Source: Kitasatospora sp. NA04385 (lineage in GTDB: Bacteria > Actinomycetota > Actinomycetes > Streptomycetales > Streptomycetaceae). Taken from it: 64,000 nucleotides of DNA. A model generated the notes under the pieces. That model was not told the DNA's origin, did no database searches, and worked only from the letters and a program-made list of their open reading frames with translations. Position 1 is the first letter of the stretch. Every line of letters begins with the position of its first letter. The stretch spans positions 5,364,267 through 5,428,266 of the forward strand of contig NZ_CP054919.1 of the NCBI RefSeq assembly GCF_013364235.1. Direction: 5' to 3'. Below are positions 56,908 to 64,000 of the stretch, piece after piece. Both the position numbers and the translations under genes were made by a program.

Positions 56908-57111
56908 CGTTCCGGCGGGCGCGTGGGAGCACGGGCGCGTCGACCGGGAGTGATAGAGAAGTGTGAAGTGCTCGGTTCCGGCCTGGTGTCGGGTCTGCCC
57001 CCGTAGGGCAAGCCAGAGGCGGGTTCTCGGCCGATCTCAGAGTGTGGTGCCCGCTGTGCGGCACTGGTGAGCGCGGACGCGCAGGCGTCCGCACAGCAGG
57101 GAGGAGATGTC

Positions 57112-58029
57112 GTGGGGGATCTGGTGATCGGTGCCCGCTCAGGTGCTCCGGAGCCCGACGGGGAACCCGTGGGCAACCAGGAGGGGGCGCACGCCGGCGA
57201 CGGCGAGGCGCTCCGGGACGCCGAGGCCGGGGCGGAAGCCGACGGAAGTACGGAGGCACCGTCCAGGAAGGCGCCCAAGCAGCGCTCCTTCTGGAAGGAG
57301 CTGCCGATCCTGATCGGCATCGCGCTGATCCTGGCCCTGGTGATCAAGACCTTCTTCGTCCAGGCGTTCTCGATCCCCTCGGGGTCGATGGAGAACACGC
57401 TCCAGGTCGGTGACCGCGTCCTGGTCGACAAGCTCACCCCGTGGTTCGGCTCCGAGCCGGAGCGCGGCGAGGTCGTGGTCTTCAAGGACCCGGGCGGCTG
57501 GCTGAACGACGAGCCGACCCAGCGCAGCGACAACTCCTTCGTGCGCGGCGTGCAGGACGTGTTCAGCTTCATCGGCCTGATGCCGTCCAGCGACGAGAAG
57601 GACCTGATCAAGCGCGTCATCGCGGTCGGCGGTGACACCGTGGAGTGCCAGGGCTCCGGCCCGGTCAAGGTGAACGGCGTGGCGCTCGACGAGCCGTACA
57701 TCTTCCCCGGCAACACCCCGTGCGGGGAGAAGCCGTTCGGGCCGGTGAACGTGCCCAAGGGCAGGATCTGGGTGATGGGCGACCACCGCGGCAACTCCCT
57801 GGACTCGCGGTACCACATGGACCAGCCGGGTGGCGGCACCGTGCCGGTCGGCAACGTGGTCGGCCGGGCGTTCGTGGTGGCCTGGCCGGTCGGCGACTGG
57901 GCGACGCTGCCCATCCCGGAGACGTTCGACCAGAAGGGCCTGGCCGCCGCCGGACCGCTCGCTCCGACCATGGCCGGCACGGCGCTCGCCGTCCCCGCCG
58001 TGTGGTGGCTGCGCCGGCGCCGCCGCTGA
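57112..58029 (+). CDS. lepB: Signal peptidase I (third of four)
   Basis: 305-aa type I signal peptidase most like the second (shared DKLTPWFG-x-EPERGEVVVF). Catalytic Ser about residue 92, Lys about residue 167, box E GDHRGNSLDSRYH. One N-terminal helix (ILIGIALILALVIK) and a C-terminal helix (MAGTALAVPAVWWL) with a basic RRRRR end give two anchors. GTG at 57112 chosen for its GGAGGAG 5-6 bases upstream; an in-frame GTG at 57067 lacks one. It follows a 204-base gap without genes. Confidence 0.95.
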   Translation: MGDLVIGARSGAPEPDGEPVGNQEGAHAGDGEALRDAEAGAEADGSTEAPSRKAPKQRSFWKELPILIGIALILALVIKTFFVQAFSIPSGSMENTLQVGDRVLVDKLTPWFGSEPERGEVVVFKDPGGWLNDEPTQRSDNSFVRGVQDVFSFIGLMPSSDEKDLIKRVIAVGGDTVECQGSGPVKVNGVALDEPYIFPGNTPCGEKPFGPVNVPKGRIWVMGDHRGNSLDSRYHMDQPGGGTVPVGNVVGRAFVVAWPVGDWATLPIPETFDQKGLAAAGPLAPTMAGTALAVPAVWWLRRRRR

Positions 58030-58196
58030 CCGGACACCGACCGGTCGGGAACGCCTCTTGCGCGGGCCGTGGTACTGGCGAGTAATCTGCTCGCACGTGC
58101 CGCGGCCCGCAGCGCTGTCCGGACCGGGACGGCCGACCGCGGACCGGCCGCCGGTGCTCCGGCGGGGCAGCCTGGAGCCAGGAGAGGGCGGAGCCG

Positions 58197-58940
58197 ATGA
58201 GCAGCGTCGCGGAGCGGACCGCGCACACCGGGGCCGGACCGGCCCGCCGCCGGAGCGCCGGGTCGATCGTGCAGGGCGTGGCGATCGCGCTCGGCTTCGT
58301 GATGCTGGTGGGCGGCTTCGCGGTGCTGGCGCTCCAGTACCGGCCCTACCGGATTCCGAGCGGTTCGATGAGCCCGACCCTGGCGATCGGCGACACCGTC
58401 CTGGCCCGGACCGGCGGATCGGTCGGCCGTGGCGACATCGTGGTCTTCCAGGACGAGGACTGGGGCAACGCGACCCTGGTGAAGCGCGTGGTCGCGGTCG
58501 GCGGGGACACCGTCTCCGGTGACCGGGCCGGGCGGATCGCCGTCAACGGCCACCAGGTGTCCGAGCCCTACCTGGCCCCCGCCGAGATGGGGACGACCGA
58601 GTTCTCGGTCACGGTGCCCGAGGGCCGGCTGTTCCTGCTCGGCGACTTCCGGGGGAACTCCCTGGACTCGCGGAGCCACCTCGACGTGGCGTTCGGCTCG
58701 GTGCCCGCCTCCGGGGTGAAGGCGAGGGTGGAGGCGGTGATCCGGCCGCTGTCCCGGGCCGGGCTGGAGTCGCCCGTCCGGGCCTTCGACGACCTGGGCG
58801 CGCCGACCGCCCACCGGCCGGGCCCGCTGGTGCCCGCCACGTGGACGTCGGTCGGCGGGGCGGTCCTGATCGTGGCCGCCTCCGCGGCGGGCTGGGCGGT
58901 CTCGCTGACCCGCCGGCTGCGGGGACGCCGCAAGGCCTGA
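58197..58940 (+). CDS. lepB: Signal peptidase I (fourth of four)
   Basis: 247-aa, the shortest and most divergent of the four. Catalytic Ser about residue 57 (IPSGSMSPTL), Lys about residue 96 (VKRVVAVGGD), and box E LGDFRGNSLDSRSH, where Asp-Phe replaces Asp-His. N-terminal helix (ALGFVMLVGGFAVLAL) and C-terminal helix (GAVLIVAASAAGWAVSL) anchor both ends. ATG at 58197 has GGAG sites upstream. Confidence 0.94.
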   Translation: MSSVAERTAHTGAGPARRRSAGSIVQGVAIALGFVMLVGGFAVLALQYRPYRIPSGSMSPTLAIGDTVLARTGGSVGRGDIVVFQDEDWGNATLVKRVVAVGGDTVSGDRAGRIAVNGHQVSEPYLAPAEMGTTEFSVTVPEGRLFLLGDFRGNSLDSRSHLDVAFGSVPASGVKARVEAVIRPLSRAGLESPVRAFDDLGAPTAHRPGPLVPATWTSVGGAVLIVAASAAGWAVSLTRRLRGRRKA

Positions 58941-59876: not shown

Positions 59877-60068
59877 CCGCCCCGCGACTGAGCGGCCGGC
59901 CCCCGCGGGGCCCGGTGCCGGGCGGGAACGGCGCGGCCGACCGCGCCCTCCCGCCAGGTCCGTCGCACCTCGGTGAGCTGCGACGGTGCCCGGGCCACCG
60001 AGATTGACCGCGCCGGGCGGGCACTGTCCAGCGCATTTTCGACATGTCGCTCGAACGGGTGAGCGAAG

Positions 60069-60094
60069 TTATCCACAGGCCCGGGTTATCCACA
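60069..60094 (+). promoter_or_regulatory. Two perfect DnaA boxes
   Basis: TTATCCACA occurs at 60069-60077 and 60086-60094, 17 bases apart on the same strand, in the 284-base gap before yraN. This is the ideal DnaA box. No dnaA-dnaN or oriC genes are near, so the pair may titrate DnaA or make it a regulator of yraN. The rest of the gap shows no gene. Confidence 0.7.
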
Positions 60095-60160
60095 GGCCTG
60101 GCCATTCGGCTGGCCCGCCCCGGGCACGTGACGGCAACCTGCCGGCCGGAGGTGATTGCC

Positions 60161-60643
60161 GTGCAGAACCCCAACAAGACGTCCACCCACGGCCTCGGTC
60201 GCTACGGCGAGGAGGTCGCCGCCCGCCGGCTCGCCGAGCACGGGCTGTGCATCCTGGAACGCAACTGGCGCTGCGCCTCGGGCGAGCTCGACATCGTCGC
60301 GCTCGACGGGGACGTCCTCGCGATCTGCGAGGTGAAGACCCGCTCCGAGCGGGGCTTCCAACAGCCCGCCGAGGCGATCGACCAGGCCAAGGCCGACCGG
60401 CTGCGCCACCTCGCCGAACGCTGGCTCGCCGAGCGCTGGCCGGTGCACTTCTCCCGCCTGGTGCTCGCCGCCGAGCGGGCCGGTGGCGCCGACCCGCGGT
60501 CCGATGGCGCCGACCCGCGGTCCGATCCGGAGAGCGGCGGCCCGGCTCCGCCGCCGCCCGGCGGGATCCGCATCGACCTGGTCGCCGTGGTCAACCCCCG
60601 CCGGGGCGCCGCCGCGGTCGAGCACCTGCGCGGGGCGGTGTGA
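60161..60643 (+). CDS. yraN: YraN/UPF0102 family nuclease-like protein
   Basis: 160-aa UPF0102 protein with a restriction-endonuclease-like core: [29 protein letters not shown] and ICEVKTRS give the G-E-D...E-x-K pattern. Its cellular role is unsettled. A 28-residue low-complexity insert, including GADPRSD twice, separates the last strands (RIDLVAVV). GTG at 60161 has GGAGGTGAT upstream, an almost perfect anti-16S match. It is followed 1 base later by the yifB-like gene. Confidence 0.93.
60485..60526 (+). repeat. 21-bp perfect tandem duplication within yraN
   Basis: GGCGCCGACCCGCGGTCCGAT (units 60485-60505 and 60506-60526, shown here as one 21-base word split by the codons of GADPRSD) is repeated exactly, adding seven residues in frame. 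Confidence 0.9.
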
Positions 60644-60644
60644 G

Positions 60645-62312
60645 ATGGCGTTCGCCCGCACCTGCTCGGTCGCCCTGGTCGGAGTGGACGGCGTCGTGGT
60701 CGAGGTCCAGGCCGACCTCGAACCCGGACTGGCGGCCTTCAGCCTGGTGGGCCTCGCCGACAAGGCCCTCCTGGAAGCCCGCGACCGGGTACGCGCCGCC
60801 GTCTCCAACAGCGGGGAGAAGTGGCCGCTGCGCAAGCTCACCGTGGGCCTCACCCCGGCCTCCGTGCCCAAGAGCGGCAGCGGGTACGACCTGGCGGTGG
60901 CCTGCGCCGTCCTGGCGGCCGCCGAACGGCTCGACCCCGCGTCGATCGACGGCCTGCTGATCATCGGCGAGCTGGGCCTGGACGGCCGGGTGCGCCCGGT
61001 GCGCGGAGTCCTGCCCGCCGTCCTGGCGGCAGCGGACGCCGGCTACCGACAGATCGTGGTCGCCGAGCAGACCGCCGCCGAAGCGAAACTGGTGCCCGGC
61101 GTCTCCGTCCTCGGAGTGCGCAGCCTGCGCCAGCTCATCGCGATCCTCACCGACGCCCCCGTCCCCGACGAACCGCCGGACCAGCCCACCGGCCGCCCCG
61201 ACTCCTCGTTCGCCGGACTGCTGCTGCCCGGCCTCGGCGTCCGCGACCTCACCTCCGAACGGGCCGTCCGCCCCGACCTCGCCGACGTGGCCGGGCAGTA
61301 CGAGGCCCGCCGAGCCCTGGAGATCGCCGCAGCGGGCGGCCACCACATCTACCTGAAGGGCCCGCCGGGAGCCGGCAAAACGATGCTGGCCGAACGGCTG
61401 CCGGCCCTGCTCCCCCCGCTCACCCCCACCGAAGCCCTCGAAGTGACCGCGATCCACTCCGTGGCCGGCCTGCTCCCGCCCGACCGTCCGCTGATCGACA
61501 CCCCGCCCTACTGCGCGCCGCACCACTCGACGACCATGCCCGCCATCGTCGGCGGCGGAACGGGCCTGCCCAGACCCGGAGCCGTCTCCCTCGCCCACCG
61601 CGGCGTGCTGTTCCTCGACGAGGCACCCGAATTCCCGGTCCGGGTCCTCGACGCGCTGCGCCAACCCCTGGAATCGGGGGAGGTGATGATCGCCAGAGCC
61701 GCCGGCTCGATGCGGCTGCCCGCCCGCTTCCTGCTCTGCCTGGCCGCCAATCCCTGTCCCTGCGGCCGCTATTCACTGAGAGGAGAAGGATGCGAATGCA
61801 CCCCCGTCATGGTCAACCGCTACCAGGCGAGACTGTCCGGACCGCTGCTGGACCGGGTGGACCTCCAGGTGCAGGTCACCGGGGTCACCAAGGCCGAACT
61901 GATGCAGCAAGGCGGAAGGGCCGAGAGCACGGCGACGGTCGCCGCACGCGTGCTGGAGGCCCGGGCGCGGGCCGCCGCTCGCCTCGCCGACACCCCGTGG
62001 CGGACCAACGCCGAAGTGCCAGGGCACGAACTGCGCACGCGCTGGCAACTCGCACCCGGTGCGCTGGCCGACGCCGAACGTGACCTCGACCGGGGCCTGC
62101 TCACCGCGCGCGGCCTCGACCGCGTCCTGCGGGTCGCCTGGACGGTGGCCGACCTCGCCGGCCGGGACCGCCCCCACCGGTCCGACCTCCAGAGCGCGCT
62201 CACCCTCCGCACCGGCGTCCAGCGTGCCGCCCGCCCCACGGACCGCCGGAACGACCCGCTCTACCCGTACGACGAAACCGACGCCGGCACCGGCCCGGAC
62301 GGCGGATTCTGA
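60645..62312 (+). CDS. YifB/ComM-like Mg chelatase-family AAA ATPase
   Basis: 555-aa AAA+ protein. An N-terminal Lon-protease-like domain (about residues 1-170, no catalytic pair evident) leads into the Mg-chelatase ATPase: Walker A GPPGAGKTML, Walker B VLFLDEAPEF, and the Cys cluster NPCPCGRY...CECTP. ComM, its relative, is a hexameric helicase that helps branch migration in natural transformation. Being between yraN and dprA supports a DNA-processing role. ATG at 60645 follows the yraN stop directly. Length is normal. Confidence 0.94.
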   Translation: MAFARTCSVALVGVDGVVVEVQADLEPGLAAFSLVGLADKALLEARDRVRAAVSNSGEKWPLRKLTVGLTPASVPKSGSGYDLAVACAVLAAAERLDPASIDGLLIIGELGLDGRVRPVRGVLPAVLAAADAGYRQIVVAEQTAAEAKLVPGVSVLGVRSLRQLIAILTDAPVPDEPPDQPTGRPDSSFAGLLLPGLGVRDLTSERAVRPDLADVAGQYEARRALEIAAAGGHHIYLKGPPGAGKTMLAERLPALLPPLTPTEALEVTAIHSVAGLLPPDRPLIDTPPYCAPHHSTTMPAIVGGGTGLPRPGAVSLAHRGVLFLDEAPEFPVRVLDALRQPLESGEVMIARAAGSMRLPARFLLCLAANPCPCGRYSLRGEGCECTPVMVNRYQARLSGPLLDRVDLQVQVTGVTKAELMQQGGRAESTATVAARVLEARARAAARLADTPWRTNAEVPGHELRTRWQLAPGALADAERDLDRGLLTARGLDRVLRVAWTVADLAGRDRPHRSDLQSALTLRTGVQRAARPTDRRNDPLYPYDETDAGTGPDGGF

Positions 62313-62442: not shown

Positions 62443-64000
62443 ATGACCGCACACCTCGCACCCCGCGCACACGCGGACCTCCCCGTCGGCCCACCGGCCG
62501 CGCCGATCGCCGACCGGCCCGCACCGCACGACGCCACCCGCAGGCTCGGCCTCGTCCGGCCCGGAGGCGCCGGAGCCGGGCCGACCCGGGCCGAGCCGTC
62601 CGACGGCCCCTGCCCGCCGCATCCGCCCGACGCCCCTGTGGCGTGCGACGGCGGCGAACGGCTCCGACGCCCGATGCGCGGCGCCGGACCGCCCGCCGTG
62701 CACCGCTCGCGCCACGGGCCGACGGAACCCGCCCGGGCCGTGCCGTGGACGGAGGGCCCGAACACGGCGGGCCCGCCACCCGAGGGCCGGCCCGACCAGG
62801 CGCACCACACGGCCGGGGCCGCGACAGCCGACCGGCCCCTCCGCACCGGGACGGCGTGGGGCGAACGCCGCGTCATCCGCCCCACGGCGTGGGCCGCGCC
62901 CACAGCCCCGCCCGACCCGCCCGAGCCCGAGCGGATCTCCCGGGCCGCGCTCACCAGACTGATCGAACCGGGCGACGCCGCGATCGGCCGGGCGGTCCAA
63001 CGGCTCGGCGCGGTCCGCCTGGTGCAGGGCTTCTACGAAGGGGCGCCCGCCAGTCGGCTCGGGCTCGGCGCCGACCGGATCGCCGCCTACCAGGAGAGAC
63101 TGCGAAAGTTCAACCCGGCCACCGACCTGGAACGGATCGCCAGACTCGGCGGGAAGTTCATCATTCCGGGCGACAGCGAGTGGCCCTCCCAGCTCGACGA
63201 CCTCGGCGACGGCCGCCCGGTCGGGCTGTGGGTCCGCGGCCTCCCGTCACAGCGGCTGCCGTCGCTGCGCCTGCTCGCCCTGCGTTCGGTCGCCGTCGTC
63301 GGATCGCGGGCCTGCACCGCGTACGGGCGGCACATCGCCGGCCAGCTCGGGTCCGAACTGGCCGAGCGCGGCTGGGTGGTGGTGTCCGGAGCGGCCCACG
63401 GGGTGGACACCGCCGCGCACCTCGGGGCGCTGGCGGTCAACGGGATGACGATCGCGGTGCTCGCCAGCGGCGTCGACATCTGCTACCCGCGCGGGAACGA
63501 GGCGCTGATCGAGAGGATCGGACGGGACGGGCTGCTGGTGAGCGAGCTGGCGCTCGGGATGAACCCCACCAGGTTCAGGTTCGTGCTGCGGAACCGGGTG
63601 ATAGCCGCGCTCACCCGCGGCACGGTGGTGGTCGAGGCCGCATCGCGCAGCGGCGCGCTCAGCACCGCGCGGCGGGCGCGGGACCTCAACCGGCACACCA
63701 TGGGCATCCCCGGCCCGATCACCTCCGAACTCTCGGCGGGCGTACACACGTTGATCAGGTCCGGCGCGGCGACCATGGTCACCAGCGGTGCAGAGGTGGG
63801 CGAGCTGATCGGTTCCATCGGGGCCGACCTGGCACCGGAGCGGGCCGGCCCGCTCCTGCCGAGGGACGCGCTGGAGCCACCGGTGGCCCGGGTCCTGGAG
63901 GCGGTGCCCGCCAGCGCGGACGGCGCGCCGGTCCAGCGCCTCGCCCACTACGCGGCGCTCTCCGAGACCGCGACGGTCCAGCACCTCCACGAGCTGAGTT
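62443..64000 (+). CDS. dprA: DNA-processing protein DprA (3' end outside window)
   Basis: At least 519 residues, open to the window edge. DprA protects incoming single-stranded DNA and loads RecA. The Rossmann-like core has VVGSRACTAYG, SGAAHGVDTAAHLGAL and FRFVLRNRVIAAL, with GAAT after it and a helix-turn-helix start near the edge. Residues 1-160 are Pro/Ala/Arg/Gly-rich low-complexity sequence absent from usual DprA, so the true start may be later. ATG at 62443 is kept because GAAGGAG lies just upstream. Confidence 0.9.
   Translation, partial: MTAHLAPRAHADLPVGPPAAPIADRPAPHDATRRLGLVRPGGAGAGPTRAEPSDGPCPPHPPDAPVACDGGERLRRPMRGAGPPAVHRSRHGPTEPARAVPWTEGPNTAGPPPEGRPDQAHHTAGAATADRPLRTGTAWGERRVIRPTAWAAPTAPPDPPEPERISRAALTRLIEPGDAAIGRAVQRLGAVRLVQGFYEGAPASRLGLGADRIAAYQERLRKFNPATDLERIARLGGKFIIPGDSEWPSQLDDLGDGRPVGLWVRGLPSQRLPSLRLLALRSVAVVGSRACTAYGRHIAGQLGSELAERGWVVVSGAAHGVDTAAHLGALAVNGMTIAVLASGVDICYPRGNEALIERIGRDGLLVSELALGMNPTRFRFVLRNRVIAALTRGTVVVEAASRSGALSTARRARDLNRHTMGIPGPITSELSAGVHTLIRSGAATMVTSGAEVGELIGSIGADLAPERAGPLLPRDALEPPVARVLEAVPASADGAPVQRLAHYAALSETATVQHLHELS

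Follow-up and report, generated by a model that had tools for sequence, protein, structure and literature searches.

Why should the leader of a DNA-processing operon carry two perfect DnaA boxes far from any origin gene? The question is raised by a stretch of 64,000 nucleotides from Kitasatospora sp. NA04385 (contig NZ_CP054919.1, positions 5,364,267 to 5,428,266 of the forward strand; this whole stretch is referred to as the window, and its positions are counted from its first letter). Ahead of the gene yraN the word TTATCCACA occurs twice on the plus strand, at 60069–60077 and 60086–60094, with 17 nucleotides from start to start and 8 bases between the words; the underlying repeat is 17 nucleotides long and consists of two tandem copies of GTTATCCACAGGCCYGG. 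The pair would appear to make up the DnaA-box part of a composite promoter, which co-regulates genes for natural transformation in the Streptomycetaceae (probability about 0.7, based on comparisons of sequences).

The first-pass annotation had regarded such a pair as very unlikely to arise by chance, and the counts bear this out. In the complete genome (8.40 Mb, one contig) 17 exact copies of TTATCCACA were present and none of the reversed control word. The direct pair with 17-bp spacing and N8 was found twice in exact form, and six sites were obtained with up to three mismatches over the 18 fixed bases (control, 0). A search of 70 Kitasatospora genomes yielded 64 exact N8 pairs, distributed over 38 genomes, and no control pair. 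Chance occurrence in the yraN leader could draw some support from the window taken alone, where one-mismatch matches are not rare in shuffled sequence (22 of 100 shuffles reach two); it is refuted by the absence of control pairs, by the presence of the element at all 24 Streptomyces yraN promoters and by the recovery of other genes in held-out genomes (see below). The box pair is genuine and exceeds chance expectation by far.

Recurrence at genes for natural transformation

Pairs with the same spacing were located elsewhere in the genome (genome positions) upstream of comEA (2541920–2541945, minus strand), of ssd/CpaE, the first gene of a Tad-pilus operon (3552959–3552984, minus), of a cpaB-type gene flanked by fmdB and mscL (4718064, minus), of a DUF6099 gene (2622346, minus) and of ssbB (5716714, plus). 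Since these other pairs sit at natural-transformation genes, a reading limited to replication becomes less likely. A sequence model (R1), built from 97 elements which all came from other genomes, gave seven full-length matches in this genome, with E values from 1.6e-14 to 3.7e-8, upstream of yraN, ssd/tad, the cpaB-type gene, the DUF6099 gene, comEA, ssbB and an M23 peptidase gene; the next match (E 0.016) was a DnaA-box cluster near dnaB. The M23 element lies at genome positions 5432303–5432353 (minus strand), 8 kb from the yraN element and just outside the window; the gene is divergent from rpsB, and the competence regulon may include a cell-wall hydrolase.

A late-competence set usually comprises comEA, comEC, dprA, comM and ssbB together with a type IV filament. 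Under the element are comEA-comEC (ComEC, 906 amino acids, with Competence, i.e., channel, and Lactamase_B, i.e., metallo-beta-lactamase, domains), the recombination helpers DprA, ComM and a paralogue of the single-stranded DNA-binding protein (SSB), and, as pilus genes, the ssd/CpaE-tadA-tadC-pilin-tadE operon and the cpaB-type locus. The corresponding domains (TadA, TadC-type, TadE-like, pilin-like DUF4244, SSB and DprA) were found. For DUF6099 a four-helix-type bundle was predicted confidently (pLDDT 90); a comparison with the PDB gave no match better than E 0.045, and thus no clue to its function.

The same gene classes recurred throughout the genus. The 62 exact pairs in the 69 other Kitasatospora genomes were situated at yraN (26), ssd/tad (15), comEA (8), ssbB (7), cpaB-type loci (3, one of them assigned via its neighbour fmdB), DUF4192 (2, divergent from a recQ-type helicase gene) and DUF6099 (1). 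When the spacer was varied from 0 to 30 in this genus, N8 accounted for 64 pairs and N9 for 15; the rest were mostly N1–N3, which in the cases inspected lay within origin-type box clusters, and a few N12 and N17. A scan of the family, with the third box base free and one mismatch allowed, found pairs in 34 of 81 genomes (one control hit), and 72 of 85 classified loci fell into the same gene classes. Among the 13 other loci were four M23 peptidase genes beside rpsB (L137, L178, L180, L187) and a gene for a CpaB of full length, in which SAF and RcpC domains are present (L191). The cpaB-type gene has shrunk to 89–109 codons in Kitasatospora (L023, L070, L080), the element being retained despite the short gene; longer CpaB proteins occur in other genera (L191; Streptomyces L445, L469). 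Genes for DUF4192 with the element are present in several genera (L049, L084, L131, L144, L156, L199, L232). In L049 and L084 the gene is divergent from a recQ-type helicase gene, and in the genome under study the recQ-type intergenic region contains a single TTATCCACA only, at 5622719.

The set assumed to be Streptomyces (g2, the largest genus of the family) lacks exact N8 pairs in most genomes and gave no match in 39 genomes with the exact word, since its spacer is N9 and its second box is looser. A supposed absence from this genus was overturned by reading the promoters: the element was found at 24 of 24 yraN genes and at nearly all of 23 ssbB genes, with N9 and TNGTCCAC[A/C] as box 2. Conservation upstream of yraN in relatives, the check proposed by the first-pass annotation itself, is strong. 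A second model (R2), trained on Streptomyces yraN and ssbB elements only, was run on ten untrained genomes of that genus and yielded 6–13 matches per genome at E ≤ 0.01. The 70 matches inspected included yraN (10), comEA (8), cpaB (8), M23 (7), ssd/tad (6), ssbB (6) and DUF6099 (2). No other single result from the sequences argues as strongly for a regulon defined by the element as this recovery in held-out genomes. Further R2 matches were located at parA (L451, L460, L477), recF (L459), acetamidase (L452, L489), N-acetylmuramoyl-amidase (L430) and DUF2252-like genes (L456, L488); those at parA and recF may be ordinary DnaA boxes.

Outside the family, named matches were obtained in Actinoalloteichus (ssd, yraN) and in Catenulispora and Actinocrinis (DUF4192). 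The Nocardiopsis matches were origins; in oriC of this genus a TTATCCACA-N8-TTATCCACA pair, its spacer being of the GGYTGAGG type, is conserved (L223, L226, L228, L234, L236, L246). Matches of the composite pattern in Actinoplanes, Dietzia and Arthrobacter were rejected as regulon members, as they are not at competence genes. In a scan of the class with the exact word, 15 of 395 genomes were positive; 12 matches, all in one family, were at dnaA/oriC, one was in a dense origin-type box array and one was upstream of a gene with an ssb-like start. At L095, in another family, an exact 17-bp pair precedes a gene which starts MYEANTAVIGRV and is SSB-like; the link to ssb may extend beyond the Streptomycetaceae.

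Anatomy of the promoter

The layout was derived from 103 nonredundant loci. These were chosen by their boxes, so that conservation of the boxes is not in itself evidence, only that of the unselected columns. The composite consists of a palindrome, TCACYC-N4-GRGTGA, followed by GTTNTCCACA, 8–9 bp, TTNTCCACAG and a -10 hexamer at a fixed distance. At yraN a 16-bp imperfect palindrome, TCGCTCGAACGGGTGA (consensus TCACYCSNNSGRGTGA), occupies 60047–60062 on the plus strand (about -99 to -84) and is a predicted site for a dimeric regulator. It is followed on the same strand by box 1 (60069–60077, about -77 to -69; family-wide consensus GTTNTCCACA), by box 2 (60086–60094, about -60 to -52; the next base is a G), by a weakly conserved -35-like element, CTGGCC (60110–60115; cTGgC at logo offsets 41–45), and by the predicted -10 hexamer CAACCT (60135–60140; YANNNT). 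The two direct TTNTCCACA boxes are 17–18 bp apart, and the hexamer lies 39 nucleotides after box 2. Of the unselected columns, those from -22 to -7 relative to box 1 showed the conserved palindrome TCACYCSNNSGRGTGA, where the dyad-symmetry score was also highest, and the A and T of the -10 hexamer were conserved as well. A YANNNT hexamer started at offset 64–66 from box 1 in 92 of the 103 loci, covering eight gene classes, and was near zero at other offsets. A flanking G was present before box 1 in 91 and after box 2 in 102 of the 103 loci. If the -10 element is taken as -12 to -7, the centres of box 2, box 1 and the palindrome are at about -56, -73 and -91, respectively. A generic scan for sigma-70 promoters gave no match, the weak CTGGCC included. 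The first-pass annotation had placed both words correctly, but had treated them as a feature standing by itself; palindrome and fixed -10 hexamer belong to the same promoter.

The predicted transcription start is about 14 nucleotides ahead of the GTG of yraN, and a Shine-Dalgarno-like GGAGG precedes this gene at about 60148–60152. The operon, on the plus strand, begins with yraN (UPF0102; 60161–60643; PF02021, E 6e-24) and continues with comM/yifB, encoding a Mg-chelatase-type AAA+ helicase (60645–62312; PF01078, PF13541, PF13335), and dprA (62443–64000, extending beyond the window; PF02481, E 4.5e-63). Nudix and DUF2469-like genes precede yraN, and upstream of these are two tandem signal-peptidase-like genes (57067–58940).

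The palindrome is present in Streptomyces yraN and ssbB promoters too. Its distance to box 2 is constant between the genera, while box 1 is shifted by one base. In Streptomyces the -10 hexamer is at offset 55 in 19 of 20 ssbB and 14 of 24 yraN promoters, i.e., about ten bases, or one helical turn, closer, which fits an activator touching the polymerase on one face of the DNA. A CAAGATC motif about 29 nucleotides ahead of the -10 hexamer was noted in Streptomyces promoters of yraN and tad and in part of those of M23 and comEA genes (L332–L355, L446, L454, L464, L467, L470, L476, L479, L482), and in none of the Kitasatospora versions.

Probable binding factors and function of the proposed regulon

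With a fixed layout that recurs upstream of seven gene classes and is kept in many species of several genera, the element is very probably a promoter shared by competence genes. The boxes, centred near -73 and -56, would be bound by DnaA, and the palindrome, near -91, by a dimeric regulator. Both proteins together would bring in RNA polymerase carrying the principal sigma factor, and the genes for DNA uptake and recombination would be turned on when DnaA (through its level, its nucleotide state or its release from origins) acts at the same time as a second signal. The palindrome would appear to need such a second, dimeric regulator; its half-site resembles that of BldD (TNACNC), with a different spacing.

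The boxes are probably bound by DnaA. Two or more DnaA-box 9-mers are present at the promoter, and their extended form, (G)TTNTCCACA(G), recurs in oriC of this genome, where the boxes have a free third position (G3 T2 A2 C1 among exact boxes) and a G after the box in 8 of 8 exact and 20 of 20 exact-or-near boxes. The common word, free third position and flanking G favour DnaA as the binder. No second protein with the DNA-binding domain of DnaA was detected in the genome, where PF08299 matches dnaA only; unrelated folds could read the same word. Whether DnaA would act as activator rather than as repressor is evenly balanced, activation being suggested by the upstream position and the helical phasing. 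The boxes might instead be read by a dedicated competence regulator, their likeness to DnaA boxes being convergent, with one or two factors on palindrome and boxes. Strict geometry of boxes and palindrome, together with gene specificity, is typical of a dedicated activator, and the constant spacing of palindrome and box 2 alongside a moving box 1, as well as the degenerate box 2 of Streptomyces, would suit it; the agreement with the oriC boxes in word, third position and flanking G speaks against it, and we consider it doubtful. Several points weigh against DnaA and the proposed regulon. The 9-mer might be recognised by a factor other than DnaA. Box 2 is looser in Streptomyces (TNGTCCAC[A/C]), and in a Streptacidiphilus-like genus (g140) box 1 is mostly TTTTCCACA instead of TTGTCCACA; the latter is listed as a high-affinity DnaA box of S. 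coelicolor (PMC4285127), although TTTTCCACA occurs twice in oriC of the genome studied here. Some high-scoring Streptomyces R2 matches (acetamidase, parA) are not at competence genes. Finally, one study of Kitasatospora viridifaciens saw no DNA uptake by walled cells and stated the role of comEA/EC in this species as unknown (PMC9500057).

This last result would suit a regulon which serves adhesion by pili, the repair of DNA or its consumption, and Tad pili, SSB, ComM and DprA can serve other roles. Yet comEA-comEC, dprA, comM and ssbB in combination with a Tad pilus are the usual late-competence set, and transformation in another actinobacterium, Micrococcus luteus, requires Flp/Tad pilus genes (PMC4322843); a function apart from transformation appears rather unlikely to us. 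Competence might be inducible under conditions other than those tried. It is possible, if somewhat less than probable, that Streptomycetaceae, including Streptomyces, have kept an intact transformation system, in which DnaA and the palindrome regulator would jointly license competence and couple DNA uptake to the replication cycle.

Clusters of DnaA boxes outside oriC, D78 and others, occur in Streptomyces. They have DnaA boxes away from oriC in common with the element described here, but act on replication frequency, while the latter is a two-box promoter element. Titration of DnaA or control of origins by the yraN pair, as the first-pass annotation had suggested, could draw on the perfect, high-affinity-type boxes and on the box clusters which the same genome has close to dnaB, to serS-pheA and to a rhomboid gene. 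This was rejected on the geometry and is very improbable: there are only two boxes, which are gene-specific and stand in a promoter beside a palindrome, at a constant distance from the -10 hexamer, in contrast to a dense cluster outside a promoter context of the datA/D78 type, and true clusters score far lower with model R1. The other TTATCCACA clusters (4068351–4068427 before dnaB; 4123649–4123700 after the rhomboid-type gene; 4249671–4249962 between serS and pheA) are likely true DnaA clusters, with low model scores. The alternative suggestion, control of yraN-yifB-dprA by DnaA, fared better: conservation and the oriC-like extended specificity make it plausible, but its scope of one operon was too narrow, and the larger point, a cryptic competence regulon, had been missed. 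A link of yraN-comM-dprA to replication stress is conceivable. The frame chosen was Streptomyces; the host is a Kitasatospora, and the element is conserved in both.

Relation to known systems

The control of competence in actinobacteria is an open question. Streptomyces and Kitasatospora are the main producers of antibiotics and have no known natural transformation; a cryptic competence programme is predicted for them from the element, probably with a link to replication. A conserved element joining nearly the whole transformation gene set points to a trait which is selected for. The element names the genes and provides a sequence for pulling out the regulator, as well as promoters for reporters with which inducing conditions could be found. 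Should DnaA be the binder, a direct link between initiation of replication and DNA uptake would be given.

No published actinobacterial competence regulon, motif or element of this type was found in the literature searched, which left most subscription journals outside. Micrococcus luteus belongs to the same phylum and has the same machinery, comEA/EC and a Flp/Tad pilus, according to passages of three papers (PMC4322843, PMC8467076, PMC12849477); its competence regulon and regulator are stated as unknown in a passage from 2026 (PMC12849477), and the passages on its competence report no promoter motif. DnaA is known as a transcription factor for dnaA, nrdAB, sda and gcrA (reviewed in PMC8203912). 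Promoter DnaA boxes and a possible coupling of expression to replication are common to those genes and the element; here, in contrast, the boxes are part of a conserved composite with a palindrome, and the word "competence" does not appear in that review.

A competence regulon as such is a known kind of system, and as far as the literature searched goes, the cis element, the DnaA-type boxes and the presence in Streptomycetaceae are new. Late-competence regulons are governed by ComK in Bacillus subtilis, SigX/ComX in Streptococcus and TfoX in Vibrio. There, too, one cis element serves comEA-comEC, dprA, an SSB paralogue, comM and a type IV filament. The system proposed here would differ in its cis element and regulator, in a Tad pilus in place of the Com/T4 pilus, in DnaA-type boxes within the promoter, and in the addition of an M23 peptidase and DUF6099.
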